A stretch of DNA of 64,000 bases, from assembly GCA_025359265.1 (NCBI GenBank), contig JANYHB010000055.1:1-64000 (forward strand), in the 5' to 3' direction. The notes under the pieces were generated by a model, which saw nothing but the letters and a program-made list of their open reading frames with translations, ran no database searches and was not told where the DNA came from. Each line of letters starts with the position of its first letter. The first letter of the stretch is position 1. Origin of the DNA: Hyphomicrobiales bacterium (GTDB lineage: Bacteria; Pseudomonadota; Alphaproteobacteria; Rhizobiales; Aestuariivirgaceae). Shown here in pieces: positions 33,507 through 48,142 of the stretch. The translations under genes were made by a program, and so were the position numbers.

Positions 33507-33599
33507 AGACTTATAATAATAAGCAGCACTGACATCCGCTGAGCGGGTTCAATAGCGTGCAGTTTGAGGGACGACAAGTTTTGGGAGGGGCTTCAATCT

Positions 33600-34031
33600 A
33601 TGCCAAACTGGCAATGGGCGATTTTAGCGTGGGGCTGCCTGTGGGCGCTTCAATCCGTTGGCGTGTGGTTTCAAATACGAGGCTACACCAAAGTGTTCAA
33701 TGCGATTAAAGCAGAACACAATCAGGGGTTTATCGGTACAGGCCATGCCCCGAGCCGGCTTAAGGGGGGAACCATTGCGATTGTTGTGGTTTCAACCGAT
33801 CTGATAATTTCCAAGGCCGTTGCCATGAGTGGCTTCACCATCATGGCGAAATTCAAGCCGCTTCCAGATTTAGCGGGCCTAACTATTTCAGAAGCCAAGA
33901 ATAAGATCGAAACCGAAAAAATGAAAGTGAGCCTGGGGGCTGCACTGAACAAAGCTTTCGATCAAATTGCTGGGCTGCAAAACAGGGGAGGTAAGGCAAC
34001 AACTTCGATTCCGAATTTGGCACAGGCTTGA
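33600..34031 (+). CDS. gutM: GutM-like glucitol operon activator protein
   Basis: 143 residues from the ATG at 33600, preceded by GGGAGGGG; the TTG at 33564 is less likely. One N-terminal hydrophobic segment (about residues 4-22) and a soluble C-terminal part match the GutM family, linked in enterobacteria to activation of the glucitol operon and found at the head of srl-type loci. Here it opens the operon gutM-srlA-srlE-srlB-ptsP. Biochemical action is not understood; the name rests on similarity and context. Confidence 0.75.
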   Translation: MPNWQWAILAWGCLWALQSVGVWFQIRGYTKVFNAIKAEHNQGFIGTGHAPSRLKGGTIAIVVVSTDLIISKAVAMSGFTIMAKFKPLPDLAGLTISEAKNKIETEKMKVSLGAALNKAFDQIAGLQNRGGKATTSIPNLAQA

Positions 34032-34073
34032 AAGCCTATGCTATAAAAATCAAAAATCAAAACGGAGGAACAC

Positions 34074-34841
34074 ATGGCAATTTTACCAATGCTAGTCCAC
34101 GCCGCGGATGCCACAATGCAGCATTTGCCGTTGATGAAGCAAATAGCATTTACCAATTTTGAGCACGGCGCACACGCGGTTAAAGGGGCGCATGGCAGTG
34201 CGCAACTTCTGCTTGTCGATGCACCAATCACTGTTGAGCAGTATCAGGAGAAACTGAAAACACTGACGCAGGAATCTCAAGGTGGCATTCTGGCCAATGC
34301 CGCAAAATATTTTATCGGCATCTTCCAAAAGGGTGGCGAAGTTTTCATGGGTTTCGTCACCGGCATCATCCCAACACTGGTGGTGTTGATGACGGCCTTC
34401 TATGCTGTGACAGGGCTGATCGGCGAAGACCGGGTTCACGGTCTGGCGCGTTGGGCGGGTAAAACGGCGCTGACGCGTTATACGCTTTTGCCGCTGCTTT
34501 CAGTGTTCTTTTTGACCAACCCGATGGCCTACACATTTGGATCATTCCTTGAAGAAAAGCATAAGCCTGCGTTTTATGACGCCGCAGTTTCATATGTGCA
34601 TCCGCCACTCGGCCTCTTCCCGCATGTCAATCCCGGCGAATACTTTGTCTGGGGTGGCGTTCTGGTGGCGCTGCTCGAGTTGGAGAAAAGTGGCAAAGTT
34701 GCTCCCGGCTTTCATATCCAGATGGCGCTTTGGTATGCCATTGTTGGTTTGGGTGTGATTTTATTAAAGGGCATTTTAACAGAACGTCTGACCATGATCT
34801 TGGCACGTCGCCAAGGTGTTGATCTCGATAATTTGTCATAA
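34074..34841 (+). CDS. srlA: PTS glucitol/sorbitol transporter subunit IIC
   Basis: 255 residues with a strong GGAGG before the ATG. From about residue 75 it matches glucitol IIC2 (AAKYFIGIFQKGGEVFMGFVTGI, RYTLLPLLSVFFLTNPMAYTFG, GLFPHVNPGEYFVWGG), a membrane channel that moves the polyol and passes it to IIB. Residues 1-70 form a hydrophilic extension that enterobacterial SrlA (about 187 residues) lacks. It lies in the gutM-srlAEB-ptsP operon, 42 bases after gutM. Confidence 0.9.
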   Translation: MAILPMLVHAADATMQHLPLMKQIAFTNFEHGAHAVKGAHGSAQLLLVDAPITVEQYQEKLKTLTQESQGGILANAAKYFIGIFQKGGEVFMGFVTGIIPTLVVLMTAFYAVTGLIGEDRVHGLARWAGKTALTRYTLLPLLSVFFLTNPMAYTFGSFLEEKHKPAFYDAAVSYVHPPLGLFPHVNPGEYFVWGGVLVALLELEKSGKVAPGFHIQMALWYAIVGLGVILLKGILTERLTMILARRQGVDLDNLS

Positions 34842-34853
34842 GGGCACAAAATC

Positions 34854-35903
34854 ATGGCAAAATCATTCAAAGCAGTCAAAATTTCAAGAGGCAGGGGCGG
34901 TTGGGGTGGCCCACTTGTTATCCAACCCACCGACCAACGTGATAAAATTGTCTCCGTCACCGGTGGCGGCATTCATCCGGTGGCAAAGCGCATCGCTGAG
35001 TTGACCGGCGCAACAGCCGTCGACGGCTTCAAAGCACCTCCGCTGGAAAGCGAAATGGCGTGTGTTGTCGTCGATTGCGGCGGAACGGCACGTTGCGGCG
35101 TTTATCCACGCAAGCGTATTCCGACGATCAATCTCACACCGGTTGGCCAAGTTGGCCCGTTGGCAGATTTTATCAAGGAAGACATATATGTCTCAGCTGT
35201 CAAGCCAGAGAATATCATAATGGCCGATGGTTCCGAAACACCGACAATGGCAGGATCACCAACAATGTCGACCGCACCCAAAGCCAGTGCTGGCGCGTCT
35301 AATACCACAGTGGGTGGCATAAGTGCCGCTGCTGCTGGTGCTGCAATGGCTGGAGACGGCGACGGCGGAATTATCGGTTTAATCTCGTCCATCGGCCGCG
35401 TGATGGGGCGTGTTGTCGGCATTTTCTTCAATGCCGGTCGACGCGCCATCGATCAGGTGGTTCGCAACGTTCTGCCCTTCATGGCCTTTGTGACCATGTT
35501 GATCGGTCTCATACTTTATACCGGCATCGGACAGGTGCTGGCACAGTGGATGGGGCCTCTGGCCAATAACATCATCGGCTTGCTGGTGATTTCTGCAATT
35601 TGCGGTTTGCCATTCCTTTCACCCATCTTGGGGCCAGGAGCCGTCATCGCGCAGGTAATCGGTGTGGCTATTATCGGCCCACAAATTGCCAATGGGTCGA
35701 TTGCTCCTTCCATGGCATTGCCAGCGCTATTTGCTTACAACACGCAAGTGGGCTGCGACTTCGTGCCCGTGGGACTAGCGCTTGGTGAGGCCCAACCAAA
35801 GACGATAGAAATCGGAGTTCCAGCCGTTTTGATCAGCCGGCAGATCATGGGCCCCGTGTCTGTGGTAATCGCTTGGCTGGTTAGCTTGATTGTATTTCAT
35901 TAA
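34854..35903 (+). CDS. srlE: PTS glucitol/sorbitol transporter subunit IIB/C
   Basis: 349 residues. The N-terminal IIB part has VVDCGGTARCGVYPRKR with the phosphorylatable Cys, followed by NLTPVGQVGPLADF. A flexible Gly/Ala/Ser-rich linker (about residues 125-170) leads to a membrane domain with at least four helices (MAFVTMLIGLILYTGIG, GLLVISAICGLPFLSPILGP). This is the standard SrlE layout. It starts 12 bases after srlA. Confidence 0.93.
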   Translation: MAKSFKAVKISRGRGGWGGPLVIQPTDQRDKIVSVTGGGIHPVAKRIAELTGATAVDGFKAPPLESEMACVVVDCGGTARCGVYPRKRIPTINLTPVGQVGPLADFIKEDIYVSAVKPENIIMADGSETPTMAGSPTMSTAPKASAGASNTTVGGISAAAAGAAMAGDGDGGIIGLISSIGRVMGRVVGIFFNAGRRAIDQVVRNVLPFMAFVTMLIGLILYTGIGQVLAQWMGPLANNIIGLLVISAICGLPFLSPILGPGAVIAQVIGVAIIGPQIANGSIAPSMALPALFAYNTQVGCDFVPVGLALGEAQPKTIEIGVPAVLISRQIMGPVSVVIAWLVSLIVFH

Positions 35904-35911
35904 AACGCGAA

Positions 35912-35936
35912 GGCCGGTGCCTTGTCGGCACCGGCC
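35912..35936. terminator. Strong hairpin between srlE and srlB
   Basis: Perfect 10-base arms GGCCGGTGCC (35912-35921) and GGCACCGGCC (35927-35936) with a 5-base loop TTGTC, 8 bases after the srlE stop. Only an interrupted, weak T-run follows (GTTTCACGGTTT), so it is more likely a partial terminator, processing site or 3'-end stabiliser than a complete stop, because srlB and ptsP follow 24 bases later on the same strand. Confidence 0.65.
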
Positions 35937-35959
35937 GTTTCACGGTTTGGAAAATGTAA

Positions 35960-36343
35960 ATGAGTATCCTGCTTTCATCGAAGATCACCGCAATCGGGCC
36001 AGACGTTGCTGAGTTACTTGAAGGTGGTGTTCTAATTCTCTTCGCAGACGGCTGCCCCCCCGAACTTGCCGAAGTATCAGTGAGCCACATCGTTGCAGAG
36101 GCAACAAAAACCAGACAACCCAAACCTGGCGACCAACTCCGTATCGGATCCATAACGGCAAGAGTTACCGCAGTTGGCGAACTTGCTTGGGACAAAATGA
36201 CAGAAATGGGGCATGTGGTTTTCAATTTCGGAGGCTCAAATATCGCAGAGCGCCCTGGCGAAATCTGTGTATCAGCTGTTGACAGAGATCATCTCTGGGC
36301 CGCGCTCAATCCCGGCGCCACTATTACCATCGAAACAATCTAG
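35960..36343 (+). CDS. srlB: PTS glucitol/sorbitol transporter subunit IIA
   Basis: 127 residues of the glucitol IIA family: ITAIGPDVAELLEGGVLILFADGCPPELAEVSVSHI places the phosphoacceptor His in the SHIV region; VTAVGELAWDKMTEMGHVVFNFGG is family-specific. It accepts phosphate from HPr and donates to the SrlE Cys. It follows the intercistronic hairpin and is 13 bases before the HPr-EI gene. Confidence 0.9.
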   Translation: MSILLSSKITAIGPDVAELLEGGVLILFADGCPPELAEVSVSHIVAEATKTRQPKPGDQLRIGSITARVTAVGELAWDKMTEMGHVVFNFGGSNIAERPGEICVSAVDRDHLWAALNPGATITIETI

Positions 36344-36356
36344 GCTCACTGTCGTC

Positions 36357-38345
36357 ATGATGTCCTCGCAAGCAAGCGATATAGTGGAGCAGATCGTCGT
36401 GGTTAAGGTGCACGAAGGCCTGCACGCGAGGCCAGCCGCGAGGTTTGCGAAGTTGGCGAAGACATTTGCATGTGAAGTTGAACTGTGGCGCGGCGAAGCA
36501 AAGGCCAATGCCAAAAGTTCTGTTAAACTCATGTTGCTGGCCATTAAGGAAAATGAACGCGTAACATTGCGCGCGTACGGCGACGATGCAGCAATGGCGC
36601 TGCAGTCGCTTGCTGAATTCCTGGCAAACCCAGAAGCTGGACTGGAGAATTCAAGTGAAGTGGAACTCCAACCAATCACGCAACATTCCGTTCAACCCCT
36701 TGCGACTAGCAACTCAATCGCCACTAATCAGCGGCAAGGTTTGCCCATCAGCGATGGTTTCGCGCTCGGGCCTGCCTATTCATACTTTCCAGCGGCAATT
36801 GTCATTGATCAAAGGGGGTTGGATGCAGCAGACATTGAACATGAACTGGCCAAACTTCAATCAGCACTCAATGCGGTTCAGGCACGCATGAGTGTGTCAT
36901 TGGGCGATCACAACATTTCAGCCGCTGACAAAATTATCATATCAGCCTTGGCCGAGTTAATTGACGATCGCGACATAAGAGCCGAGATTGAAACTGAAAT
37001 CCAATCTGGCAAAAACGCCGTTGCGAGTGTTGATTTGGTATCGCGGCGCAGCGCCAATGCATTGGCACAAATTGAGGATGCTTACCTGCGTGCGCGTGGC
37101 GATGACATCATGGCCATCAGCCGCCAGCTTTGCCTTGAACTGCAAGGCAAAGCGGATATTGATTTGTCCAATGTGCCGAATGGGGCAATTGTCGTGGCTG
37201 ATGATATCGGGGCTTTTGACCTCGCCAAAGCACCCCTGAAAAATATCGCTGGCCTCATATGCGGTGTGGGCGGCACTACATCACATATCGCCATCATTGC
37301 GAGGGCGCATGCAATACCGGCCGTGTTCGGTCTCAACCAAACTGTGCACGAAATCGGCGGTGCAAAAACAATCGCCATCAATGGACGCACTGGCACCATT
37401 TTATTAGACCCAGACACCAGGCAGGTAACAGCCTTCAATCAGGAGGCTGGCCAATTCCAACTGGACCGCGAAAAGCTTCAGAAATTTAAGTCAGTTCTTC
37501 CTAAACGCGGCGACGGAGTCATAATTGAAGTTGCGGCCAACATAGGCTCGCTCGATGAGATCGATGCCGCAAAGGCCGCTGGCGCATTAGGCGTGGGGCT
37601 GTTTCGCACCGAACTCCTGTTTATGCTTCACCGCACACCGCCAACTGAGCAACAACAATTCGAAACCTATGCCAAGTGTCTAAGGGCTTTTGCGCCTGAT
37701 TCCGTTATCATTCGCACCCTCGACGTGGGGGGCGACAAGCCCGTGCCCGGTGTCGATTTTCTCAAAGAAGAAAATCCATTTCTCGGTTGGCGCGGCATTC
37801 GTATGTGTCTTGATCGGCCACTGCTGTTCAAGCCGCAACTACGGGCTTTGCTTCGCGCGTCAACCGAAGGCAAGCTCAAAGTCATGTTGCCGATGGTCTC
37901 TGATCTTAGTGAAATTATTCGGACCAAAGCCCTTATCGAAGAATGCCAGGAAGAACTGCGCAAGGAAGCAGTTGCCTTCGGCAACTTTGAATTGGGCATC
38001 ATGGTTGAAACGCCCGCAGCAGTTTTCCAAGCGGCAGAATTTGCCAAATATGTGTCATTCTTTTCCATAGGCACGAATGATCTAACCCAATATGTGATGG
38101 CCGCAGACCGACTTAATGCAAGCGTCGCCCATTTAAACGATGTTGCAAATCCAGCCGTGATGGCGGCGATTGCGGCAATTGCAGAAGCGGGAACGAAAGC
38201 TGGGATAATGGTTGGCATGTGTGGAGAGGCCGCCGGGCGTGAAGATCTTGTGCCAAAATTCATTGCCATGGGTATCACTGAATTTAGCATGAGCCCCGCA
38301 AGAATTCTTCCAATAAAAAAACTGCTTGCAAATAGTTCACACTAA
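36357..38345 (+). CDS. ptsP: HPr-Enzyme I fusion phosphotransferase
   Basis: 662 residues from tandem ATG at 36357. Residues about 10-90 are a complete HPr: phosphorylatable His23 in EGLHARPAARF and a Ser46-type Ser in NAKSSVKL. After a linker, a full Enzyme I follows: the phosphohistidine GGTTSHIAIIARAH (His about 310), LFRTELLFM, and the C-terminal PEP-binding GTNDLTQYVMAADR and GMCGEAAGR. PEP phosphate would therefore pass from EI to HPr within one chain and on to SrlB. No GAF domain is present, so it is not the nitrogen-PTS EI. It completes a self-sufficient glucitol PTS operon; the symbol is provisional. Confidence 0.9.
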   Translation: MMSSQASDIVEQIVVVKVHEGLHARPAARFAKLAKTFACEVELWRGEAKANAKSSVKLMLLAIKENERVTLRAYGDDAAMALQSLAEFLANPEAGLENSSEVELQPITQHSVQPLATSNSIATNQRQGLPISDGFALGPAYSYFPAAIVIDQRGLDAADIEHELAKLQSALNAVQARMSVSLGDHNISAADKIIISALAELIDDRDIRAEIETEIQSGKNAVASVDLVSRRSANALAQIEDAYLRARGDDIMAISRQLCLELQGKADIDLSNVPNGAIVVADDIGAFDLAKAPLKNIAGLICGVGGTTSHIAIIARAHAIPAVFGLNQTVHEIGGAKTIAINGRTGTILLDPDTRQVTAFNQEAGQFQLDREKLQKFKSVLPKRGDGVIIEVAANIGSLDEIDAAKAAGALGVGLFRTELLFMLHRTPPTEQQQFETYAKCLRAFAPDSVIIRTLDVGGDKPVPGVDFLKEENPFLGWRGIRMCLDRPLLFKPQLRALLRASTEGKLKVMLPMVSDLSEIIRTKALIEECQEELRKEAVAFGNFELGIMVETPAAVFQAAEFAKYVSFFSIGTNDLTQYVMAADRLNASVAHLNDVANPAVMAAIAAIAEAGTKAGIMVGMCGEAAGREDLVPKFIAMGITEFSMSPARILPIKKLLANSSH

Positions 38346-38353
38346 CCGAACCA

Positions 38354-39352
38354 TTAAGTTGCAGCCAAAATAGCCTTCGCTGCATACTCATCCGTTACGA
38401 AAATATGCGGCTGAAGCAACCTCAGCCCGCCAATGAGAGCCATTACCTTTTCTTCTCCTCCAGAAGCCAAAATCCGCAATGGCACTTTTAAAATTTGTGA
38501 AATGGAAACGCTCATCGCCCGGTCATTGATCGGGTGCTTAATAAGTTTCCCATCATGATTGAAAAAATTGAAGAGAACGTCTCCAACCGCACCGGCGGCA
38601 ATCAGGCTTTTGCGATCTTCATGAGACATCACATCAAAAAGCCACGCAGTCGAAGTTGGAAGCGTGTGCCCCACACTCAGCAATACAGCGTCCAATTTAG
38701 GCGCCAACTCGAAAACCGGGCCGATTCCACAACGCTCTATGAGAGCCTTCTTGGTTTCTTTGCTGTCCACCAGCGCAGGCGCTGCAATAAGATAGCAATC
38801 AGCCCGCAAAAGCTCAGCAAATCGCCAAGCAAATTCCGTCGGGTTGTAGCGATGCACGGCGGAAATTCCACCCAGCATGGAAACAACCGTCAACCCCGGC
38901 ACATCGATTTCCTCAATAAAGGGAATTGAATTCAACAGCGTTTTACCCCAGCCCACGCCCAACATCATTTCGGGTTTGACGATTTCGGAAATCAATTGGC
39001 CCACTGCCGCCCCAACTATCAACGCAGAGTCGGCTGCATTGTTTGATTTGGGGCTAACAACAGCTCGCTCAAGCCTGAATCTGCGCTGCAGTGCAGTTTC
39101 CAGTTCGCTAAGCTCGGTAAAGTCGCGCCGTAAAGATATTTTTACTTCATTTTTCGCCCGAGCTTCGGCCAAGAGTCGAACAACCGTTACCCGCCCGATC
39201 CCAAGGGTTTCAGCAATGGTATTTTGCGTCATTTCTTCGACGTAATACATCCATGCTGCACGCTGCCGAAGGCTGGTGTTTAGTTTTCGATTATTTTTGC
39301 GGGTAACTGTTTCGATTACTTCCGTCTCACGCCGCTTGACTTTTTTGATCAT
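38354..39352 (-). CDS. SorC/DeoR-type sugar-binding transcriptional regulator
   Basis: 332 residues from the ATG at 39352. N-terminal helix-turn-helix (MTQNTIAETLGIGRVTVVRLLAEAR) and a C-terminal SorC effector domain of the NagB-like fold (MLGVGWGKTLLNSIPF, ALIERCGIGPVFELAP, ILASGGEEKVMALIGGLRLLQP). SorC proteins bind phosphorylated sugars or polyols. Convergent with the PTS operon (8 bases between stops), it is the likely regulator of srl genes, though its target is inferred from position only. Its start faces the PPTase gene 92 bases away. Confidence 0.87.
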   Translation of the reverse strand: MIKKVKRRETEVIETVTRKNNRKLNTSLRQRAAWMYYVEEMTQNTIAETLGIGRVTVVRLLAEARAKNEVKISLRRDFTELSELETALQRRFRLERAVVSPKSNNAADSALIVGAAVGQLISEIVKPEMMLGVGWGKTLLNSIPFIEEIDVPGLTVVSMLGGISAVHRYNPTEFAWRFAELLRADCYLIAAPALVDSKETKKALIERCGIGPVFELAPKLDAVLLSVGHTLPTSTAWLFDVMSHEDRKSLIAAGAVGDVLFNFFNHDGKLIKHPINDRAMSVSISQILKVPLRILASGGEEKVMALIGGLRLLQPHIFVTDEYAAKAILAAT

Positions 39353-39444
39353 TTTTCCAAACACTTGCAATCAACATAATGTTAGTCATGTATTACGAGT
39401 TGCGGCAAGCAGTGTTTCATAAAAAGCAGAAGCATATTTATAAA

Positions 39445-40095
39445 ATGACCCACGTCCGCATCGCCACATTCGCCGCACACAACAGGTCAGCCACGTTGGC
39501 TGAACTGATGAAGGCGCAAGGATTGGTGAATTTCACGGCGCAGAAGGCACAATCGGGAAAGCCCTATTTGCTCGGCGGTGATGGGGCGATTGCTGGCCTG
39601 TCCATCAGCCATGTGCGGCGGGCGCGCCCGGCTTTTTCCCTCATGTCCGTGAGTGAAACTGCTGCAAGTGCAATTGATGCAGAGGTTTTGTCTATGCGCC
39701 CAACAGACGAAACTTTCTTGGCCAGCATTGCAGCACCTGAAGATGCAAAGATCATAAAAAGCGCGCGTTCGGCTGGACGTGATCCGGTTGCCCTTATCTG
39801 GACGCTGAAAGAGGCGGCCCTGAAGGCCGGCGGCGAAGTGATGACAGACCCGCGGCATTTAGCTTTGTGCATGTCAATAAATGGTCACATTCAAGCTTCA
39901 GCAAGCAGCGCAGCATCGGCTCCATTACAACGATGTATACTGCGTGCCTTTGAAATGCACATAAATGGCAGTGAAGAAGTTATTATGGTGGGCGTGGCAA
40001 CAGCAGGCCTCCATGGCGCGAAAAATGCACCGAATCTTGATGTGGTGTGCGATAATCCAGACATTCGCTTGCTGTGTTGTGAATGGCTGACGTAG
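39445..40095 (+). CDS. 4'-phosphopantetheinyl transferase-like protein
   Basis: 216 residues from the ATG at 39445. The superfamily motifs are present: ISHVRRARPAFSLMSVS, IDAEVLSMRP (Mg2+-binding Asp) and WTLKEAALKA (KEA). These enzymes transfer phosphopantetheine from CoA to carrier-domain serines. It is 89 bases upstream of and in the same orientation as the single-carrier NRPS-like gene, whose PCP Ser is its expected target. The sequence is less conserved than in AcpS or Sfp. Confidence 0.75.
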   Translation: MTHVRIATFAAHNRSATLAELMKAQGLVNFTAQKAQSGKPYLLGGDGAIAGLSISHVRRARPAFSLMSVSETAASAIDAEVLSMRPTDETFLASIAAPEDAKIIKSARSAGRDPVALIWTLKEAALKAGGEVMTDPRHLALCMSINGHIQASASSAASAPLQRCILRAFEMHINGSEEVIMVGVATAGLHGAKNAPNLDVVCDNPDIRLLCCEWLT

Positions 40096-40184
40096 TTGGG
40101 GTTAACACGGTTGATGGCGAAATGCACATATTGTCGACACAGCGGAATGTCATAATCTTAAAATAGGTTTGACAGGAAAGAAAA

Positions 40185-43100
40185 ATGAATAAGAACACCA
40201 CAAAAGCCAAGGCAGCTTTCGAAACCTCCAGTCTCATCGGCCCTAAACATCCAGAATTTCTGAAAGAAGAAGTTTTGGCGGATATTTTCCGTGCCACAGT
40301 TGCTCGCACACCCAACGCCACTGCCATCATCTCAGGCGAACGTCGCCTGTCTTATCTTGAAGTTGATCGACTGTCTGACCGGATAGCCGCCGCTCTCGTC
40401 CGCCGTGGCGCGGCATCTGGCAAAGTGATTGGACTCTATTTCACACGCGGCGTGAATTTGTTGCTGTCGCAAATCGCTGTGACGAAAACGGGGGCCACCT
40501 GGCTGCCTTTTGATTCCGAAACCCCCAAAGACCGCATGGCCATTTGTCTTGCTGATTGCGGCGCAATTGGTTTGCTGGTTGATGAAGATGTGGAAGACCG
40601 GGTGGTTGGTTTTGCACACCCCGTTTGGTCGATGAGCGACGCGGAGTTTAATCAACCGCTTGATAAAGCCCTGCCCGCGCCAAAAAAGCCCGCGCCTGGC
40701 TCCCACGCTTATTTAATCTATACCTCGGGAACAACGGGAACGCCCAAGGGCATTGCGATCACACACCGCAATATTTGCCACTATCTACGCGCTTCCAATT
40801 CCATCTTCGGCATTACCGCCAAAGACGTGATGTTCCAGGGCTGTTCGGCGGCTTTCGATTTATCGATGGAAGAAATCTGGGTGCCCTATCTCGCTGGCGC
40901 TGCCCTTTGGGTGGCGACGCCCGAGATCATGGCAGACACAGAAAACCTCCCGCGCCGCATGCGCGATGCAGGTGTAACCGCCATCGACACGGTGCCTACT
41001 TTGCTTTCGATGTTTGCTGAAGATGTTGACAGTTTGCGTTTGATTATTGTGGGTGGCGAAGCTTGCCCACCTGGTCTGACTGAACGTTTTTCCAAGAAAG
41101 GCCGCCGCATTTTCAATTCATACGGCCCGACCGAAACCACGGTGGTAGCCACCATTGCCGAATTGGGCAGAGGCAACACTGTCACCATCGGCAAGCCGAT
41201 TCCCAACTACACCGCTTATGTGGTGAATGATAATCTACAACTCGTCGCCGCTGGCCAGCAAGGTGAGCTGTTGATTGGTGGTCCTGGCGTTGCTGATGGC
41301 TATCTGGGCCGATCTGATTTAACGGCGCAAAAATTTTTCGCCAACCCATTTCATAAAAAGTCAGGCGACAAAATTCTTTATCGCACTGGCGATGCCGTAT
41401 CGATTGATGAAAACGGCAATGTTCTTTTTCATGGCCGCGTTGATGACCAGGTAAAAATCCGTGGTTTCCGTGTGGAACTCGGAGAAATTGAAACAGCTGT
41501 TGGCGAGGATGCCGCAATTGAACATGCCGCTGTTGTTCTTCGCAAAGACCATGGCCTTGAACGGCTGGTGGCATTTATTGTTCCACGCAAAGATGCCAAA
41601 CCAGATATACATGCATTGCGTGAAACGCTGCGCAGGCGCCTGCCACCCTATATGGTGCCAGCTGCATTTGAAGTGATTGCGGAAGTGCCGCGCCTGATTT
41701 CAGGCAAGGTGGACCGCAAATCTCTTAAGAACATGACCTTGGCTTCCGCATGGGCAGATGAAAGCCAGTCTGAGCAAGGCAACAATCCTGTAGAGGTGGC
41801 TCTGATTGCCGCGGCCAAAGAGATTTTTCCTGGCCAGCCAATTTTGCGCGATGCCGATTTCTTTACTGACTTGGGTGGACATTCACTGCTTGCTGCACAA
41901 TTCATTTCAAAAGTGCGTCTGAGTAAATATGGCCAAACTATTACTTTGCAAGACATGTATGCTGGTCGCACGGTTGAGAACATCGCCAAGCTTTTGATTG
42001 ATCGCGGTGCGATGGACCACACAGAGCATGGCGCAGCGACGCCCATTCCCCGCGCTTCAATGAATAAGCGGTTTTGGTGCGGTGTCGCCCAAACCGCCAC
42101 ATTGCCACTCATTCTTTGTTTGCACGCCGCACCTTGGCTGGCGATCTTTATCAGTTATTCGCTGATCAGCCCCGACGAAAACTCGGTGTTCGGCGATGCC
42201 GGCTTTGTATTTGTGGGATACGCGCTCGTCACGCTGTTCAATTACATTTTTGTGCCTCTCGCAAAACTCGTGATCATGCCCAAAACCAAACCCGGGGTTT
42301 ACCCATTGTGGGGAACTTATTATTATCGCATATGGCTCGTCCAACGTCTTACCGGTCTCGTTCATTTGAAATGGATGCAAGGCACGCCCGTTATACGATT
42401 CTACCTACGTCTGCTCGGTGCCAAAGTTGGCAAAGATGCGCTTATCAGCGATCTGTTTGTTCACGCCTATGACCTATTAGAAATTGGTGACCATGCATCA
42501 CTTGGCGGGCAGTTGATCATTGCCAACGCGCGCGTGGTTGGTGACAAATTCATCATCGGCCCCGTTAAAATTGGCAACGATGTTTCTCTGGGCAATTCCG
42601 TCGTGATCGAAGAGAACACCGTGATAGGCGATGGCTCTGAGCTGTCTGACTTGACATCGCTTCTGGCCAACACAAACGTTCCTCCCAACGAACGCTGGAG
42701 TGGTTCACCACCTCTAAAAGTTGCTGACTTGAAACGTGAAGACTTGCCTGCACCGGCTGAAGCCTCGCAAGCCCAGCGCGTTTTTCAAACGATCTTCTAT
42801 GCCGTTCTGCTTGTGGTTTTGCCACCCATTACGGTTTTGCCAGTTGTTCCAACTTTTCGTGTGATGGAGTGGATTGATTCCTATGTAAATCCATTGCTCG
42901 GCGGCATTGCTTATAATTGGTACCTTCCGATTATTGCTTTGCCCGCAGCGGCGTCCATGGTGCTGTTTACGTGTCTATTGGTTGTAGCTTTGCGCTGGTT
43001 GATTTTGCCTCGGCTGAAAGCTGGCAGTTATTCCATTTTTAGCAGTCTCTATCTTCGCAAATGGATTGTTACATTAGTGACCGACATTACACTCGATGCC

Positions 43101-44231
43101 GTCACGTCGATTTTTGCAACGATCTACATGCCGGCGTGGTACCGTCTGATGGGGGCAAAAATTGGTGCGGGTACTGAAATCTCCACGAGTTTGGCTGGCC
43201 GCTATGACCTTATTGATCTGGGCAAAGGCAACTTTATCGCCGACGAAGTGCGCTTGGCTGATGAAGAGCTGCGCCGGAACTGGATGACATTGGGTTCTAT
43301 CAAAACCGGTTCAAAGGTTTTTATTGGAAACTCTGCCGTCGTGCCGATGAATTACAGCATAGAAACGGGTGCTTTGATTGGTGTCAAATCCCGCCCGCCT
43401 GATGGTGGCGCGGTTGGCGCCGCTGAAATCTGGTTTGGATCTCCTGCAATTAAATTGCCCGTTCGGCAAACCTTTGCGGCGATGGACACTGCAACCTTCA
43501 GGCCTGGATTGGGAAGGCAGATTTCACGCGGCATATTTGAAGCCTTCAACATTTCATTGCCGACGGCGCTTTTTATAACCTTGGCAACTTACGGCATGGA
43601 ATTGTTGAACGAGCCCATCAACGAAGGCTCTTGGGCCGAAGCGATTTCCATGGGTATATTGGTCGTTATCTTGATTGACATTACCCAGCTATTTCTGGCT
43701 GCTGTTTTGAAGTGGTCGGCGATGGGTGTTTATCGTCCCACCATAAAACCCATGTGGTCTTGGTGGGCAATGCGCACGGAGGCGGTGGCCGTGATGTTTT
43801 GGGGTATGGCGAGCAACGCCGTGTTAGAGCATTTGCGCGGCACACCGATGTTGCCTTTTGCTCTGCGGCTTTTTGGTGTGAAGATTGGCAAAGGCACTTA
43901 TATGGATGCCACGGACATAACTGAGTTTGATTGCGTCTCAATCGGCGATTACGCGGTGATCAATGTAGGCACAGTTTTACAGACGCATCTTTATGAAGAT
44001 CGATTGATGAAAGTGGGTCGCATTATCATCGGCAAAGATGTGACAGTTGGAGCAGGCTCCACTGTGCTTTATGACACGCATGTTGGTGATGGAGCACAAA
44101 TTGGCCCTCTTACGTTGGTGATGAAAGGCGAAAGCCTTCCCACGCATTCATCATGGGTTGGCTCACCAGCGCAGCCGATGAGCAAAAAACGCAATGTTCT
44201 AATGGTGGCACCGGCAGGCGCTGGGGGCTAG
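40185..44231 (+). CDS. Pls/PosA-type non-ribosomal peptide synthetase (amino acid homopolymer synthase)
   Basis: 1348 residues. Residues about 25-515 are an adenylation domain (A3 YTSGTTGTPKG, A5 SYGPTETTV, A7 YRTGD, A10 SGKVDRKSL); about 540-605 a peptidyl carrier with GGHSLLA (Ser567). The C-terminal ~730 residues alternate hydrophobic helices with three hexapeptide-repeat (left-handed beta-helix) segments near 745-840, 1045-1125 and 1225-1320, the Pls-specific C-domain, which makes isopeptide-linked homopolymers such as epsilon-poly-L-lysine without condensation or thioesterase domains. Pocket residues read by alignment to GrsA give D, L, E, D, I, V, S, V, V, K, suggesting a basic amino acid such as lysine. 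Preceded by GGAAAG and the PPTase gene. The product is inferred. Confidence 0.88.
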   Translation: MNKNTTKAKAAFETSSLIGPKHPEFLKEEVLADIFRATVARTPNATAIISGERRLSYLEVDRLSDRIAAALVRRGAASGKVIGLYFTRGVNLLLSQIAVTKTGATWLPFDSETPKDRMAICLADCGAIGLLVDEDVEDRVVGFAHPVWSMSDAEFNQPLDKALPAPKKPAPGSHAYLIYTSGTTGTPKGIAITHRNICHYLRASNSIFGITAKDVMFQGCSAAFDLSMEEIWVPYLAGAALWVATPEIMADTENLPRRMRDAGVTAIDTVPTLLSMFAEDVDSLRLIIVGGEACPPGLTERFSKKGRRIFNSYGPTETTVVATIAELGRGNTVTIGKPIPNYTAYVVNDNLQLVAAGQQGELLIGGPGVADGYLGRSDLTAQKFFANPFHKKSGDKILYRTGDAVSIDENGNVLFHGRVDDQVKIRGFRVELGEIETAVGEDAAIEHAAVVLRKDHGLERLVAFIVPRKDAKPDIHALRETLRRRLPPYMVPAAFEVIAEVPRLISGKVDRKSLKNMTLASAWADESQSEQGNNPVEVALIAAAKEIFPGQPILRDADFFTDLGGHSLLAAQFISKVRLSKYGQTITLQDMYAGRTVENIAKLLIDRGAMDHTEHGAATPIPRASMNKRFWCGVAQTATLPLILCLHAAPWLAIFISYSLISPDENSVFGDAGFVFVGYALVTLFNYIFVPLAKLVIMPKTKPGVYPLWGTYYYRIWLVQRLTGLVHLKWMQGTPVIRFYLRLLGAKVGKDALISDLFVHAYDLLEIGDHASLGGQLIIANARVVGDKFIIGPVKIGNDVSLGNSVVIEENTVIGDGSELSDLTSLLANTNVPPNERWSGSPPLKVADLKREDLPAPAEASQAQRVFQTIFYAVLLVVLPPITVLPVVPTFRVMEWIDSYVNPLLGGIAYNWYLPIIALPAAASMVLFTCLLVVALRWLILPRLKAGSYSIFSSLYLRKWIVTLVTDITLDAVTSIFATIYMPAWYRLMGAKIGAGTEISTSLAGRYDLIDLGKGNFIADEVRLADEELRRNWMTLGSIKTGSKVFIGNSAVVPMNYSIETGALIGVKSRPPDGGAVGAAEIWFGSPAIKLPVRQTFAAMDTATFRPGLGRQISRGIFEAFNISLPTALFITLATYGMELLNEPINEGSWAEAISMGILVVILIDITQLFLAAVLKWSAMGVYRPTIKPMWSWWAMRTEAVAVMFWGMASNAVLEHLRGTPMLPFALRLFGVKIGKGTYMDATDITEFDCVSIGDYAVINVGTVLQTHLYEDRLMKVGRIIIGKDVTVGAGSTVLYDTHVGDGAQIGPLTLVMKGESLPTHSSWVGSPAQPMSKKRNVLMVAPAGAGG

Positions 44232-44327: not shown

Positions 44328-45122
44328 TTAGGCGGCGGCCACGGCGCGGCCCGCCAACACGCTTAACAAATGGGCCCGGTATGCGGCCGAGGCGTGCATA
44401 TCGCTGAGGAGCCCCTTCGCTGAGATTTTCACAGCACTGGCGGCCTTTGCTGAGAATTCTTCGTTCAAGGCTGCTTCAACCTCGACAGCGCGGAAAACGC
44501 AAGGCGCAGCCCCCGTTACACCCACACGGGTTTTGCCCTTCCCGTCTTGTGAGACGAATACACCAACCATGGCATAGCGCGACGCCGGGTTGGGGAATTT
44601 CTGGTGCGAAGCTTTCTTTGGGATGGGAAAATGCACCGCAATGATGATCTCATCGTTCTTCAAAGCCGTTTCAAACATGCCCGTAAAGAATTTATCAGCC
44701 TCAATCTTTCGCTTGTTGGTTTCAATCGTGGCACCTAATCCTAAGCAAGCCGACGGATAATCAGCTGCTGGATCGTTATTGGCGAGAGAGCCGCCAATAG
44801 TGCCCTTGTGGCGCACATGAACACCGCCAATCTTGCCCACCATTTGCGCAAGCGCTGGAATGGCCTTGTTGACGTCTTTTGACATGGTCACGTCTTGGTG
44901 AGTTGTACCCGCCTTGATGGTAACCATGGTCTTGGACACCTTGATGCCAGAGAACCCCTTGATAGCGGTGAGGTCAATCACATCCCTTGGTGCTGCCAAG
45001 CCCTGCTTCATTGTCGGGATGAGCGTGTGGCCACCCGCCAAGAATTTGCCATCCTTCGACTTTTTCAGAAGCGCAACTGCGGCAGTGGTGGTGGCAGGGC
45101 GGTGATAGTTGAAGTTTTCCAT
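44328..45122 (-). CDS. coxM: Aerobic CO dehydrogenase-type FAD-binding medium subunit
   Basis: 264 residues from the ATG at 45122 (GAGGACAC upstream), 20 bases after coxL. It is the FAD subunit of a molybdenum hydroxylase: AGGHTLIPTMKQG and TIGGSLANNDPAADYPS are the two FAD-binding loops (the second has Asn where many have His). It receives electrons from the CoxS clusters. Last gene of coxS-coxL-coxM, the order of form II systems. Confidence 0.88.
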   Translation of the reverse strand: MENFNYHRPATTTAAVALLKKSKDGKFLAGGHTLIPTMKQGLAAPRDVIDLTAIKGFSGIKVSKTMVTIKAGTTHQDVTMSKDVNKAIPALAQMVGKIGGVHVRHKGTIGGSLANNDPAADYPSACLGLGATIETNKRKIEADKFFTGMFETALKNDEIIIAVHFPIPKKASHQKFPNPASRYAMVGVFVSQDGKGKTRVGVTGAAPCVFRAVEVEAALNEEFSAKAASAVKISAKGLLSDMHASAAYRAHLLSVLAGRAVAAA

Positions 45123-45142
45123 TTTTGTGTCCTCGCCGTTTT

Positions 45143-47521
45143 CTATTCTGCAGCTTTTTTCATGCCCGATGCCTGCATCGCGTTCCAAACGGTTAGGGGT
45201 GTGGCAGGCATTGAGATTTCACGAACGCCGATGGCATTGGTGATGGCATTGATCACAGCCGGTGGCGAGCCAATGGCCCCGGCTTCACCACAGCCCTTGA
45301 TGCCCATGGGGTTGGTTGGGCACGGGGTGCACGTGAAGCCCAGCTTAAAGTCAGCCAGATTTGGCATATAGCCCGCCCGTGGCATGGCATAATCCATAAA
45401 TGACCCCGTAAGCAGCTGGCCAGATTCTTCATCGTAAATACAGCCTTCCAGAAGCGCCTGGCCAATGCCTTGGGCGATGCCGCCGTGCACCTGGCCTTCG
45501 ACAATCATCGGATTAATGAGATTGCCGAAGTCATCGACGCAAGTATACGCGGCAATGGTGGTGTGGCCCGTATCCGGATCAACTTCCACTTCGCAGATGT
45601 GCACCCCGGCGGGGAACACGAAGTTCGCTGGATCGTGGAAGGCACTTTCTTTCAAGCCAATTTCAATCTCGGAAGAGTTGAACTTGTGCCCGAGATAAGA
45701 TTGCAGCGCTACTTCACCGAAGGCCATCTTCTTGTCAGTGCCCTTCACCGTGAAGCTGCCATCTTGAAATACCACGTCATCAGCAGAGGCTTCCATCACC
45801 GCCGCCGCCACTTTTTTGGCTTTGGCAACAACCTTGTCTAAAGCCTTGGAGATGGCATGCATACCAACAGCGCCTGATCGTGAACCATAAGTGCCCATGC
45901 CCATTTGCACTTTGTCTGTGTCACCATGAACAATTGAAACCGAGTTAATGTCCACGCCCAACCGATCAGACACGAGCTGCGCGAAGGTGGTTTCATGGCC
46001 TTGGCCATGGCTATGGGAACCCGTGAGAATTTCCACTGTTCCTATCGGGTTCACGCGGACTTCCGCTGATTCCCATAAACCAACACCTGCACCAAGTGAG
46101 CCAACAGCAGCAGAAGGCGCAATGCCGCAAGCTTCAATATAGGCTGACAGGCCCACACCGCGCAGTTTGCCATTCTTGGCGCTTTCAGCTTTACGCGAAG
46201 CAAAGTTTTTATAGTCTGACATGGCCAGGGCCTTGTCTAACGCTGCGCCATAATCACCTACATCGTAACACATGATAACAGGTGTTTGATGCGGGAACTG
46301 GGTGACGAAATTTTTGCGGCGGAATTCTGCCGGGTCTTCCCTTAGTTCACGCGCGGCAGTTTCAACCAAGCGCTCCACCACATAAGTGGCTTCTGGTCGG
46401 CCGGCCCCGCGATAGGCGTCAACCGGTGCAGTGTTGGTATAAACTGCATCGACGGTTACATAGACGGCTGGAATGTTGTATTGGCCTGAAAGCAGTGTTC
46501 CGTAAAGATAAGTAGGGACCGCCGCCGAGAAAGTTGAAAGGTAAGCGCCCATTGCAGCAATAGTGTGCACACGCAGGCCGATAATCTTGCCATTTGCATC
46601 AGTTGCCAATTCAGCTTTCGTCACATGGTCACGACCGTGAGCGTCAGCCAGAAAAGCCTCAGAGCGATCGCCCGTCCACTTGACCGGGCGGCCAGCGTGT
46701 TTTGAGGCCCAAACGCACACCACTTCTTCGGCATAGATGAATATCTTGGAGCCAAAGCCGCCTCCCACGTCTGGCGCAATTACGCGCAGCTTGTGTTCGG
46801 GCGCAAGGCCATGGAAAGCGGAGATAACAAGGCGCGCAACGTGCGGATTCTGGCTGGTAGTGTAAAGCGTGTAACTTTCTGTGCCCGCATCATAAGCGCC
46901 GATGGCGGCACGTGGCTCCATCGCGTTGGGGATCAATCGGTTGTTGATGATGTCAAGCTTGGTGACATGGGCGGCGCGTTTGAAAGCGGCATCGGTTTCC
47001 GCCTCGTTGCCAAGGCCCCAATTAAACACGCGGTTATCAGGTGCCACGTCATGAACCTGCACTTTGGATGTCATCGCTTTGGCAGCATCCACCACGTGAG
47101 CCAAAGTTTCATAGGAAACTTGAATGGCAGCGGCCGCAGCTTTCGCCTGTTCTTTGGTATCAGCCACCACAACGGCTACATGGTCGCCCACATAGCGCAC
47201 TTTACCCTCGGCTAAAATAGGGTGCGGGCCGGCTTTCATGGCACTGCCATCCTTTGAGGTAATCCCCCAGCCGCAAATTAAACCACCAATTTTATCTTTG
47301 GCCACATCAACACTGGTATAAATGCCAACCACGCCCGCCATCTTCGCGGCCTTGGCTGTATTAATGCTTTTAATTTTCGCATGGGGATGGGGCGAACGAA
47401 GGAAATAGGCAAAAGCTTGATCCTTCAGATTGATGTCATCAGTATATTGGCCTTTGCCAGTGATGAAGCGAAGGTCTTCTTTGCGGCGGACGGATGCGCC
47501 AACGCCTGTTGCAGATGCCAT
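45143..47521 (-). CDS. coxL: Form II CO dehydrogenase-type molybdopterin large subunit
   Basis: 792 residues from the ATG at 47521 (GGAGC upstream), 13 bases after coxS. It binds the molybdopterin cytosine dinucleotide and catalyses hydroxylation at Mo. The active-site motif reads AYRGAGR rather than AYXCSFR, so it belongs to form II (BMS-type), whose members may oxidise CO weakly or act on other substrates. PDVGGGFGSK and the C-terminal GCGEAGAIGSP are canonical for the family. No coxDEFG maturation genes are adjacent. Confidence 0.88.
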   Translation of the reverse strand: MASATGVGASVRRKEDLRFITGKGQYTDDINLKDQAFAYFLRSPHPHAKIKSINTAKAAKMAGVVGIYTSVDVAKDKIGGLICGWGITSKDGSAMKAGPHPILAEGKVRYVGDHVAVVVADTKEQAKAAAAAIQVSYETLAHVVDAAKAMTSKVQVHDVAPDNRVFNWGLGNEAETDAAFKRAAHVTKLDIINNRLIPNAMEPRAAIGAYDAGTESYTLYTTSQNPHVARLVISAFHGLAPEHKLRVIAPDVGGGFGSKIFIYAEEVVCVWASKHAGRPVKWTGDRSEAFLADAHGRDHVTKAELATDANGKIIGLRVHTIAAMGAYLSTFSAAVPTYLYGTLLSGQYNIPAVYVTVDAVYTNTAPVDAYRGAGRPEATYVVERLVETAARELREDPAEFRRKNFVTQFPHQTPVIMCYDVGDYGAALDKALAMSDYKNFASRKAESAKNGKLRGVGLSAYIEACGIAPSAAVGSLGAGVGLWESAEVRVNPIGTVEILTGSHSHGQGHETTFAQLVSDRLGVDINSVSIVHGDTDKVQMGMGTYGSRSGAVGMHAISKALDKVVAKAKKVAAAVMEASADDVVFQDGSFTVKGTDKKMAFGEVALQSYLGHKFNSSEIEIGLKESAFHDPANFVFPAGVHICEVEVDPDTGHTTIAAYTCVDDFGNLINPMIVEGQVHGGIAQGIGQALLEGCIYDEESGQLLTGSFMDYAMPRAGYMPNLADFKLGFTCTPCPTNPMGIKGCGEAGAIGSPPAVINAITNAIGVREISMPATPLTVWNAMQASGMKKAAE

Positions 47522-47534
47522 GTTCGTGTGCTCC

Positions 47535-47999
47535 TCACATATTCGCTGCGCCGGCCTGCACGGCCTTGACGATATTATGATAACCGGTGCAGCGGCAGAT
47601 ATTTCCTGAAAGTTCCCGGCGGATGGTTTCTTCATCAACACTTTTGCCATGACGCTTTACAATATCAATCGATGCCATGATCATGCCGGGCGTGCAAAAG
47701 CCACATTGCAGGCCATGGTGTTCTTTGAAGGCAACTTGCATCGGATGCAAATCAACGCCTTTGGCCAGCCCTTCAATAGTGGTAATTTCTGCACCATCAC
47801 AAGCCACAGCAAATACGGTACAACTCTTCACAGCTTTGCCATTCACACTGACAACGCAAGCGCCGCACTGGCTGGTGTCGCATCCCACGTGCGTGCCGGT
47901 CAGGCCCCGGCTTTCACGAATAAATTCAACAAGCAGGGTGCGACCTTCAACTTGCCCATGCACAGGCTTCCCGTTCAGCGCTAAACTGATTGAATGCAT
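47535..47999 (-). CDS. coxS: CO dehydrogenase-type 2Fe-2S small subunit
   Basis: 154 residues from the ATG at 47999 with GGGAGGAAAAG immediately upstream. Two 2Fe-2S sites: the ferredoxin-like [21 protein letters not shown] and the C-terminal QCGFCTPGM ... GNICRCTGY. It carries electrons from molybdenum to the FAD subunit. First gene of the coxSLM operon. Confidence 0.93.
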
Positions 48000-48142
48000 C
48001 TTTTCCTCCCGCGCGTGCCGCTTTTGATTCAAGATTGCCGCATCGCTTTGCCGTCCAATCTTCACCCTAACCCGCGTGCCGTCAAGAGGTTGCAGCTCCA
48101 CTTTTGCGAGGAACGGCTAAAATACATCAACTTAAGTTGAAT

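Follow-up and report, generated by a model that had tools for sequence, protein, structure and literature searches.

A short segment of contig JANYHB010000055.1 (assembly GCA_025359265.1), from a Hyphomicrobiales bacterium of the alphaproteobacterial family Aestuariivirgaceae, very probably holds a small gene locus that makes a cationic homo-poly(amino acid), in which a phosphopantetheinyl transferase (PPTase) would prime a homopolymer synthetase of the Pls/PosA family. We refer to the whole stretch of DNA that was analysed, namely, the first 64,000 nucleotides of this contig, as the window. The locus consists of a PPTase gene (39445-40095, +) and, after an intergenic gap of 89 bases, the synthetase open reading frame (ORF; 40185-44231, +). 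Both ORFs lie where the original prediction, made from the letters alone, had placed them, and our comparisons support what it read into them, that is, a synthetase of this type accompanied by its own PPTase. Family and architecture of the enzyme were already known, and so, very nearly, was its pocket signature; what is added here is the placement of the enzyme in a clade, evidence for a dedicated PPTase, and an occasional third partner, an M1 peptidase.

The synthetase (1348 residues) is an intact Pls/PosA-family enzyme, in which an adenylation (A) and a carrier (T) domain are joined to a membrane domain, as established by its ORF and by profile searches. First, TIGR02353, the NCBI model for Pls/PosA, matched residues 634-1329 over all 695 model positions with 571.9 bits, against a cut-off of 423.1, and the same model gave 574.2 bits for this protein in a whole-genome profile search. 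Second, Pfam recognised PF00501 at residues 35-374, PF13193 at 434-508 and PF00550 at 549-604. The enzyme can thus be divided into an A domain (residues 35-508; 40287-41708, +), which also aligns with the A domain of PosA (8g95/8g97), a T domain (residues 549-604; 41829-41996, +), with its phosphopantetheine-bearing Ser567 at 41883-41885, and a C-terminal polymerisation domain (residues 634-1329; 42084-44171, +). Loss of the carrier serine, which the original prediction had named as fatal to it, did not occur: Ser567 is present, and it is identical in 128 of 128 aligned sequences. Neither a condensation nor a thioesterase domain was found in the synthetase by Pfam at an E-value of 0.001, where the matches were PF00501, PF13193, PF00550 and Hexapep, besides two beta-helix models that stayed under their cut-offs. 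The gene is the only one of its kind in a genome of 2.65 Mb (99.94% complete), and it holds the only carrier there of the nonribosomal peptide synthetase (NRPS) type, the two PF00550 matches outside it, out of three in total, being frames of 85-86 amino acids. Chance can be excluded as the origin of the pair because the family matches are full-length, relatives in congeners show 62-70% identity, and purifying selection acts between two close congeners (L035 and L036), with dN/dS values of 0.036 for the synthetase, 0.174 for the PPTase and 0.090 for the M1 peptidase. In this same comparison the dN/dS of the PPTase is about five times that of the synthetase, the peptidase falling in between.

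The specificity pocket of the A domain is formed by D225, L226, E229, D268, I288, G290, S312, V320, V321 and K508, that is, DLEDIGSVVK. This code comes from an alignment of the specificity region to the PosA A domain of known structure, whose A-core was the best solved match (227 bits, versus 147 for Pls 7wew), and then from one across 128 sequences, namely, 127 loci plus the window. As controls, the Acinetobacter baumannii gene read DMEHNGTVSK, in agreement with the PosA code given in the available text of PMC10522769, and the annotated Streptomyces pls (L176) read DAESIGTVVK, with Ala at position 2; an alphaproteobacterial locus, L174, carries the code that the same text gives for a Bdellovibrionales homologue. 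Asp at position 1 and Glu at position 3, which are conserved in cationic homopolymer synthetases, occur in all 124 rows with letters at these columns, and correspond to D225 and E229 in the window. Codes beginning with DLE were found in 100 of the 128 sequences, a share which reflects a non-random set, since 78 of the 127 loci came from a scan with a DLE-rich query. That scan gave at least 577 relatives, and the 80 that were kept carry alphaproteobacterial names or, in three cases, only the name Proteobacteria. Left out of the set were L069 and L070 (duplicates of L041 and L035), L061 and the fragment loci L044, L045, L047 and L048, while truncation leaves L119, L101, L138 and L095 without a full code. 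At L061 (7590-10421) a 943-residue ORF starts at the equivalent of window residue 407, and the genome search gave an open frame of 3474 residues, a discrepancy that may stem from a frameshift or a fusion.

To place the enzyme independently of its pocket, a tree was built from the C-terminal domain only (quick IQ-TREE with SH-aLRT support; 78 of the 128 rows, hand-chosen for spread; arbitrary root). All 56 rows with a DLE code fell into one clade (support of 100), which is sister to six rows with the code DMEHNGTVSK (support of 96); because the A domain was not used, the agreement between tree and pocket code is an independent check. The window is accordingly outside the PosA clade, in a separate but neighbouring one, and within the latter it belongs to a subclade of 13 rows (support of 100) that also comprises eight congeners, L073 (an unplaced Hyphomicrobiales), two Microvirga and L074. 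Profile and tree together place the C-terminal domain within or next to Pls/PosA, so the original reading of this domain was borne out and the feared clustering with unrelated acyltransferases was not seen. The likeness that had been drawn to both epsilon-poly-L-lysine synthetase and PosA stands for the architecture, yet the nearest characterised relative is PosA, which makes poly-ornithine, and not Pls, which makes poly-lysine. The alphaproteobacterial branch with DLE codes spans Azospirillum, Methylobacterium, Bosea, Microvirga and others; among genomes sampled across the class and across the phylum, 11 of 387 and 30 of 397, respectively, had a synthetase gene above the search threshold, and in the family 11 of 69 genomes had one that exceeds the cut-off.

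According to the available text of PMC10522769, position 2 of the code is a proposed gauge of chain length, with Phe for diaminopropionate (Dap) or diaminobutyrate (Dab), Met for ornithine and Ala for lysine. Since Leu is near Met in size, and since PosA rows are the neighbours in the tree, ornithine is our first guess; the substrate is perhaps L-ornithine, the likeliest single candidate, followed by lysine, diaminobutyrate, arginine or another amino acid. About equally well placed is a synthetase of the same class that uses a substrate other than ornithine, be it lysine, 2,4-diaminobutyrate, arginine or an unusual diamino acid, and that would make a polymer of another kind, whether already described or not. 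In favour of this alternative, the signature DLEDIGTV(T/V/I)K, from which the window differs by Ser for Thr at position 7, is listed as uncharacterised (PMC10522769, available text), position 2 is Leu rather than any of the three gauge residues, and the two acidic residues at positions 3 and 4 might accommodate a larger cation. Moreover, the same text reports modest activity on L-arginine for a Bdellovibrionales A domain whose code is odd. Speaking for ornithine instead, PosA is the closest characterised clade, and no EctB-like gene is directly adjacent in any DLE locus, the only aminotransferase matches there being weak (23-27%) and 2.8-7.1 kb away, in nine loci. An EctB gene does adjoin the loci with a DFEC code described below, so that its absence beside DLE genes fits, without proving, a substrate from primary metabolism such as ornithine or lysine. 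An inspection by eye of the 30 most recurrent neighbour families, in place of one-by-one searches, brought out no other precursor enzyme. In the strict sense the enzyme is neither PosA nor Pls: its code is not DMEHNGTVSK, its position 2 is Leu226 and not Ala, and the pldII linkage of Pls is absent from the window.

With respect to the membrane domain, an AlphaFold2 model of the C-terminal 743 residues (alignment of 41 rows) reached a pLDDT of 90.0 and a pTM of 0.89, and predicts three repeats, each made of a pair of transmembrane (TM) helices followed by a left-handed (hexapeptide) beta-helix. In the first repeat, the TM pair spans residues of about 626-697 (42060-42275, +) and the beta-helix residues of about 757-848 (42453-42728, +), the latter with profile matches to gamma-carbonic-anhydrase and hexapeptide structures. 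In the second, the pair spans about 862-940 (42768-43004, +) and the beta-helix about 1010-1090 (43212-43454, +), again with profile matches to hexapeptide structures. In the third, the pair spans about 1109-1179 (43509-43721, +) and the beta-helix about 1251-1331 (43935-44177, +), which contains the motif LQTHLYEDR. A plain hydropathy scan makes visible pair 1, pair 2 and a single segment of pair 3, namely, its second helix. This architecture matches, prediction against published model, the three TM-pair and beta-helix repeats described for the PosA C-terminus in the available text of PMC10522769. His1268, in the LQTH motif, is present in all 125 rows with a letter at that column, and beta-helix 3 with this residue may be the catalytic centre. 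Profile and model searches returned no PDB entry covering the whole C-terminal domain, only pieces matching single beta-helices of beta-helix enzymes, and TM-scores by query length were at most 0.18 among the 50 matches listed.

Hexapeptide beta-helices are typical of acyltransferases, and it could be argued that the enzyme is not a polymerase at all, its membrane domain instead attaching a single activated basic amino acid, or just a few, to a lipid, a lipopolysaccharide or a cell-surface acceptor, as in D-alanylation. The genomic surroundings of DLE synthetases lend this some weight: of 102 loci, 24 have a fabI-like cluster upstream and 21 an aroC-like one downstream (for example L110, L113, L116 and L119), labels that rest on one named member of each cluster, and such a housekeeping-like position, suggestive of vertical inheritance and of a physiological role, fits a function in the envelope better than an antibiotic. 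However, the characterised members that have this domain, Pls and PosA, make free polymers (PMC10522769, available text), and the architecture is complete with PosA as closest sister, so that we consider acceptor transfer improbable.

The second gene of the locus encodes an Sfp-type 4'-phosphopantetheinyl transferase of 216 residues. Its longest ORF runs from 39379 to 40095, and most relatives begin at the equivalent of 39445, supporting the latter start. The identification rests on a PF01648 match of 28.2 bits (cut-off of 25); on the columns D-x-E, which we take to be the metal-binding motif, and W..KEA..K (WxxKEAxxK), both present in the protein and its relatives; and on an AlphaFold2 model (pLDDT of 89.6) whose top Foldseek match was 4mrt, Sfp with CoA and a peptidyl carrier protein (E-value of 8.5e-8, TM-score of 0.53). 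While sharing fold and motifs with Sfp-type PPTases, it forms a distinct subfamily, and the identity of congener relatives to it is only 27-37%.

This PPTase is probably dedicated to the synthetase, as suggested by three lines of sequence comparison. First, its subfamily occurs in 10 of 37 congeners, which are the same 10 that have the synthetase (eight with the whole gene, G003 and G016 with a large piece of it at the end of a contig), the other 27 having neither; were the genomes independent, the chance of this would be 1/C(37,10), about 3e-9, a figure that is only indicative as the genomes share ancestry and the subfamily profile was derived from PPTases next to the synthetase. Second, the synthetase carries the sole NRPS-type carrier of the genome, which together with the co-occurrence gives the claim of an 'own' PPTase backing beyond adjacency; the genome's other PPTases do not match the subfamily profile at an E-value of 1e-5. 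Third, no flanking gene other than the PPTase was common to the window and the congeners at an identity of at least 40% over 60% of the length within 9 kb, and neither a conserved third gene nor an exporter or a precursor gene was shared with the window in this way, with congener flanks being incomplete at L037, which ends at the PPTase, and at L046 and L073, which end inside the synthetase. Because only the PPTase is common among flanking genes, the pair seems to move, or to persist, as a unit in differing surroundings. A PPTase-like gene directly adjoins the synthetase upstream in all 13 rows of the window's subclade, the one in L074 scoring 15.2 bits, under the Pfam cut-off, and an E-value of 2.7e-10 with a profile built without L074. 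That the PPTase is instead a general enzyme merely adjacent to the synthetase is the least probable alternative, which its low PF01648 score and the often broad specificity of Sfp-type PPTases would favour, but which is opposed by the counts among congeners (10 of 10 with the synthetase against 0 of 27 without), by the two other PPTases of the genome and by the lack of any other shared flanking gene.

Outside this subclade the linkage is patchy. A broader profile picked up PPTase-like genes next to 18 of the 99 other DLE loci, all 6 DFEA loci (406-525 bases downstream), 3 of 4 DFEC, 3 of 8 DMEH, 1 of 3 DAES, 1 of 1 DFEH, and 0 of 1 DSEC, 0 of 1 DVEA and 0 of 4 truncated loci. Flanks are short in many loci; where a DLE locus is flanked by 800 bases or more on each side, the count is 14 of 74. 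Five weak non-DLE cases that were tested were confirmed by Pfam; L112, PPTase-like by our own profile, has no Pfam match and was not accepted. The position of the gene, upstream or downstream, varies by clade: in Rhizobium L177, which has the code DLEDIGTVVK and belongs to the window's clade, the PPTase is downstream, while in the window's subclade it is upstream, and public Rhizobium and Sphingomonas records annotate a downstream pairing. Thus, the linkage probably has more than one origin, and the majority of DLE genes lack it. In the open literature, including the available text of PMC10522769, PMC8949500, PMC4361855, PMC4668381 and PMC8776678, and with subscription papers and preprints outside this scope, we found no discussion of a PPTase gene linked to a Pls/PosA gene.

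The description of the locus as one of two genes is right for the source genome and too narrow for the genus. Three congeners (L035, L036 and L038) have the order M1 peptidase, PPTase and synthetase, with the peptidase gene ending 5 bases before the PPTase gene or overlapping it by 4. Homologues of this peptidase at an identity of at least 42% occur in 4 of 37 congeners, all of them with the synthetase and three adjacent to it. In the window no M1 peptidase lies beside the pair, and the genome's sole match to the congener protein at an E-value of 1e-20 is 25% identical and on another contig. In Streptomyces albulus, pldII, whose product degrades polylysine, shares 4 bp with pls (PMC4361855, available text), and an M1 gene also overlaps pls in Streptomyces L176; the parallel is suggestive. 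We do not call the congener protein PldII: it is 24-25% identical to the M1 protein beside the Streptomyces pls, and its best NCBIfam matches (L035) are aminopeptidase N models below their cut-offs.

A different partner accompanies relatives in a sister genus of the same GTDB family (g2), where genes for an EctB-type transaminase, a DFEC synthetase and a PPTase overlap (L034, 4452-11291; L039, 5952-12695; L040, 5879-12718). TIGR02407 gave 635.5 bits for the EctB of L040, against a cut-off of 552.2, and four DFEC loci carry EctB directly upstream. A plasmid of Skermanella rosea (L179) likewise has ectB and the synthetase, and a PPTase was not found there. These loci belong to the same family as that of the window and differ from it in the pocket, DFECLS[AV]VTK, in the diaminobutyrate transaminase upstream and, in g2, in the downstream PPTase; their pocket and transaminase make poly-diaminobutyrate the probable product of these alphaproteobacterial loci.

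The immediate neighbours in the window seem unrelated to the pair. On one side lie glucitol/sorbitol phosphotransferase system (PTS) genes (33564-38345, +), encoding GutM, SrlA, SrlE and a fused HPr-PtsI, followed by a divergent SorC/DeoR-type sugar-binding regulator (38354-39370, -; PF04198, 168 bits), whose start faces the pair, such that promoter DNA may be shared. On the other side (44328-48101, -) is a three-subunit molybdo-hydroxylase resembling CO dehydrogenase, with FAD, Mo and 2Fe-2S subunits, for which the best curated models of the FAD and Mo subunits are those of glyceraldehyde dehydrogenase, below their cut-offs. These genes are not shared with the congener loci at the thresholds given above, with no copy of the regulator at an identity of 40% or more beside the pair in the congener DNA available, and were rejected as parts of the system. 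Directly beside the pair in the window there is therefore no gene for an exporter or a degrading enzyme, as had been noted from the sequence.

Compared with characterised systems, PosA of A. baumannii, which makes delta-poly-L-ornithine, shares with the window enzyme the A-T-membrane architecture, the Asp/Glu pair, the tree neighbourhood and 36% C-terminal identity, but differs in its pocket, DMEHNGTVSK versus DLEDIGSVVK. It also differs in its setting, as posA is described as a single-gene operon (PMC10522769, available text), whereas the window has a linked PPTase gene. Streptomyces Pls, the epsilon-poly-L-lysine synthetase, shares family, architecture and TIGR02353, but has the pocket DAESIGTVVK and is followed by an M1 peptidase gene, with no PPTase among the 10 annotated features around pls in L176.

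Several points weigh against our interpretation. The chemistry of the product is a prediction from the sequence. The genome also holds a second PPTase of Sfp size and one of AcpS size, the profile used for co-occurrence was built from the adjacent genes, and next to 81 of the 99 other DLE loci no PPTase was seen, so that this enzyme class needs none nearby. The sister relation to PosA comes from a quick tree with long outgroup branches, in which two sequences with a code close to that of PosA, DMEHNGTVTK, group away from the PosA rows. As for ornithine, position 9 of the pocket is Val where PosA has Ser313, replacement of which by Ala lowered efficiency 183-fold (PMC10522769, available text), and position 4 is Asp where PosA has His260, so this substrate is not assured.

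By analogy with the family, the mechanism we propose for a cationic homopolymer locus is as follows. First, the PPTase would load phosphopantetheine onto Ser567 of the synthetase. Second, the A domain would adenylate one basic amino acid, with its alpha-amine on Asp225 and its side-chain amine on Glu229, possibly with Asp268, and charge the carrier. Third, the three-fold membrane domain, unaided by condensation or thioesterase domains, would join the units through the side-chain amine into an isopeptide homopolymer, which would be released from, or across, the inner membrane. It is tempting to speculate, although we hold this to be rather unlikely, that the DLE clade makes a cationic homopolymer of a residue unreported for any synthetase (not Lys, Orn, Dab, Dap or beta-Lys), with a role in the cell envelope or in storage and not as an antibiotic, and that in the window's lineage it became a portable unit once a dedicated PPTase was fixed, joined in certain species by a recycling M1 peptidase.

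Cationic homopolymers serve as food preservatives and antimicrobials, and to our knowledge only a handful are known. Of the synthetases in the alphaproteobacterial branch described here, the version in the window comes with its own probable activating enzyme, so that expression in a laboratory host may take no more than two genes, making the question of the substrate directly testable. Co-inheritance with one client gene also makes this PPTase a clean candidate for a dedicated one.

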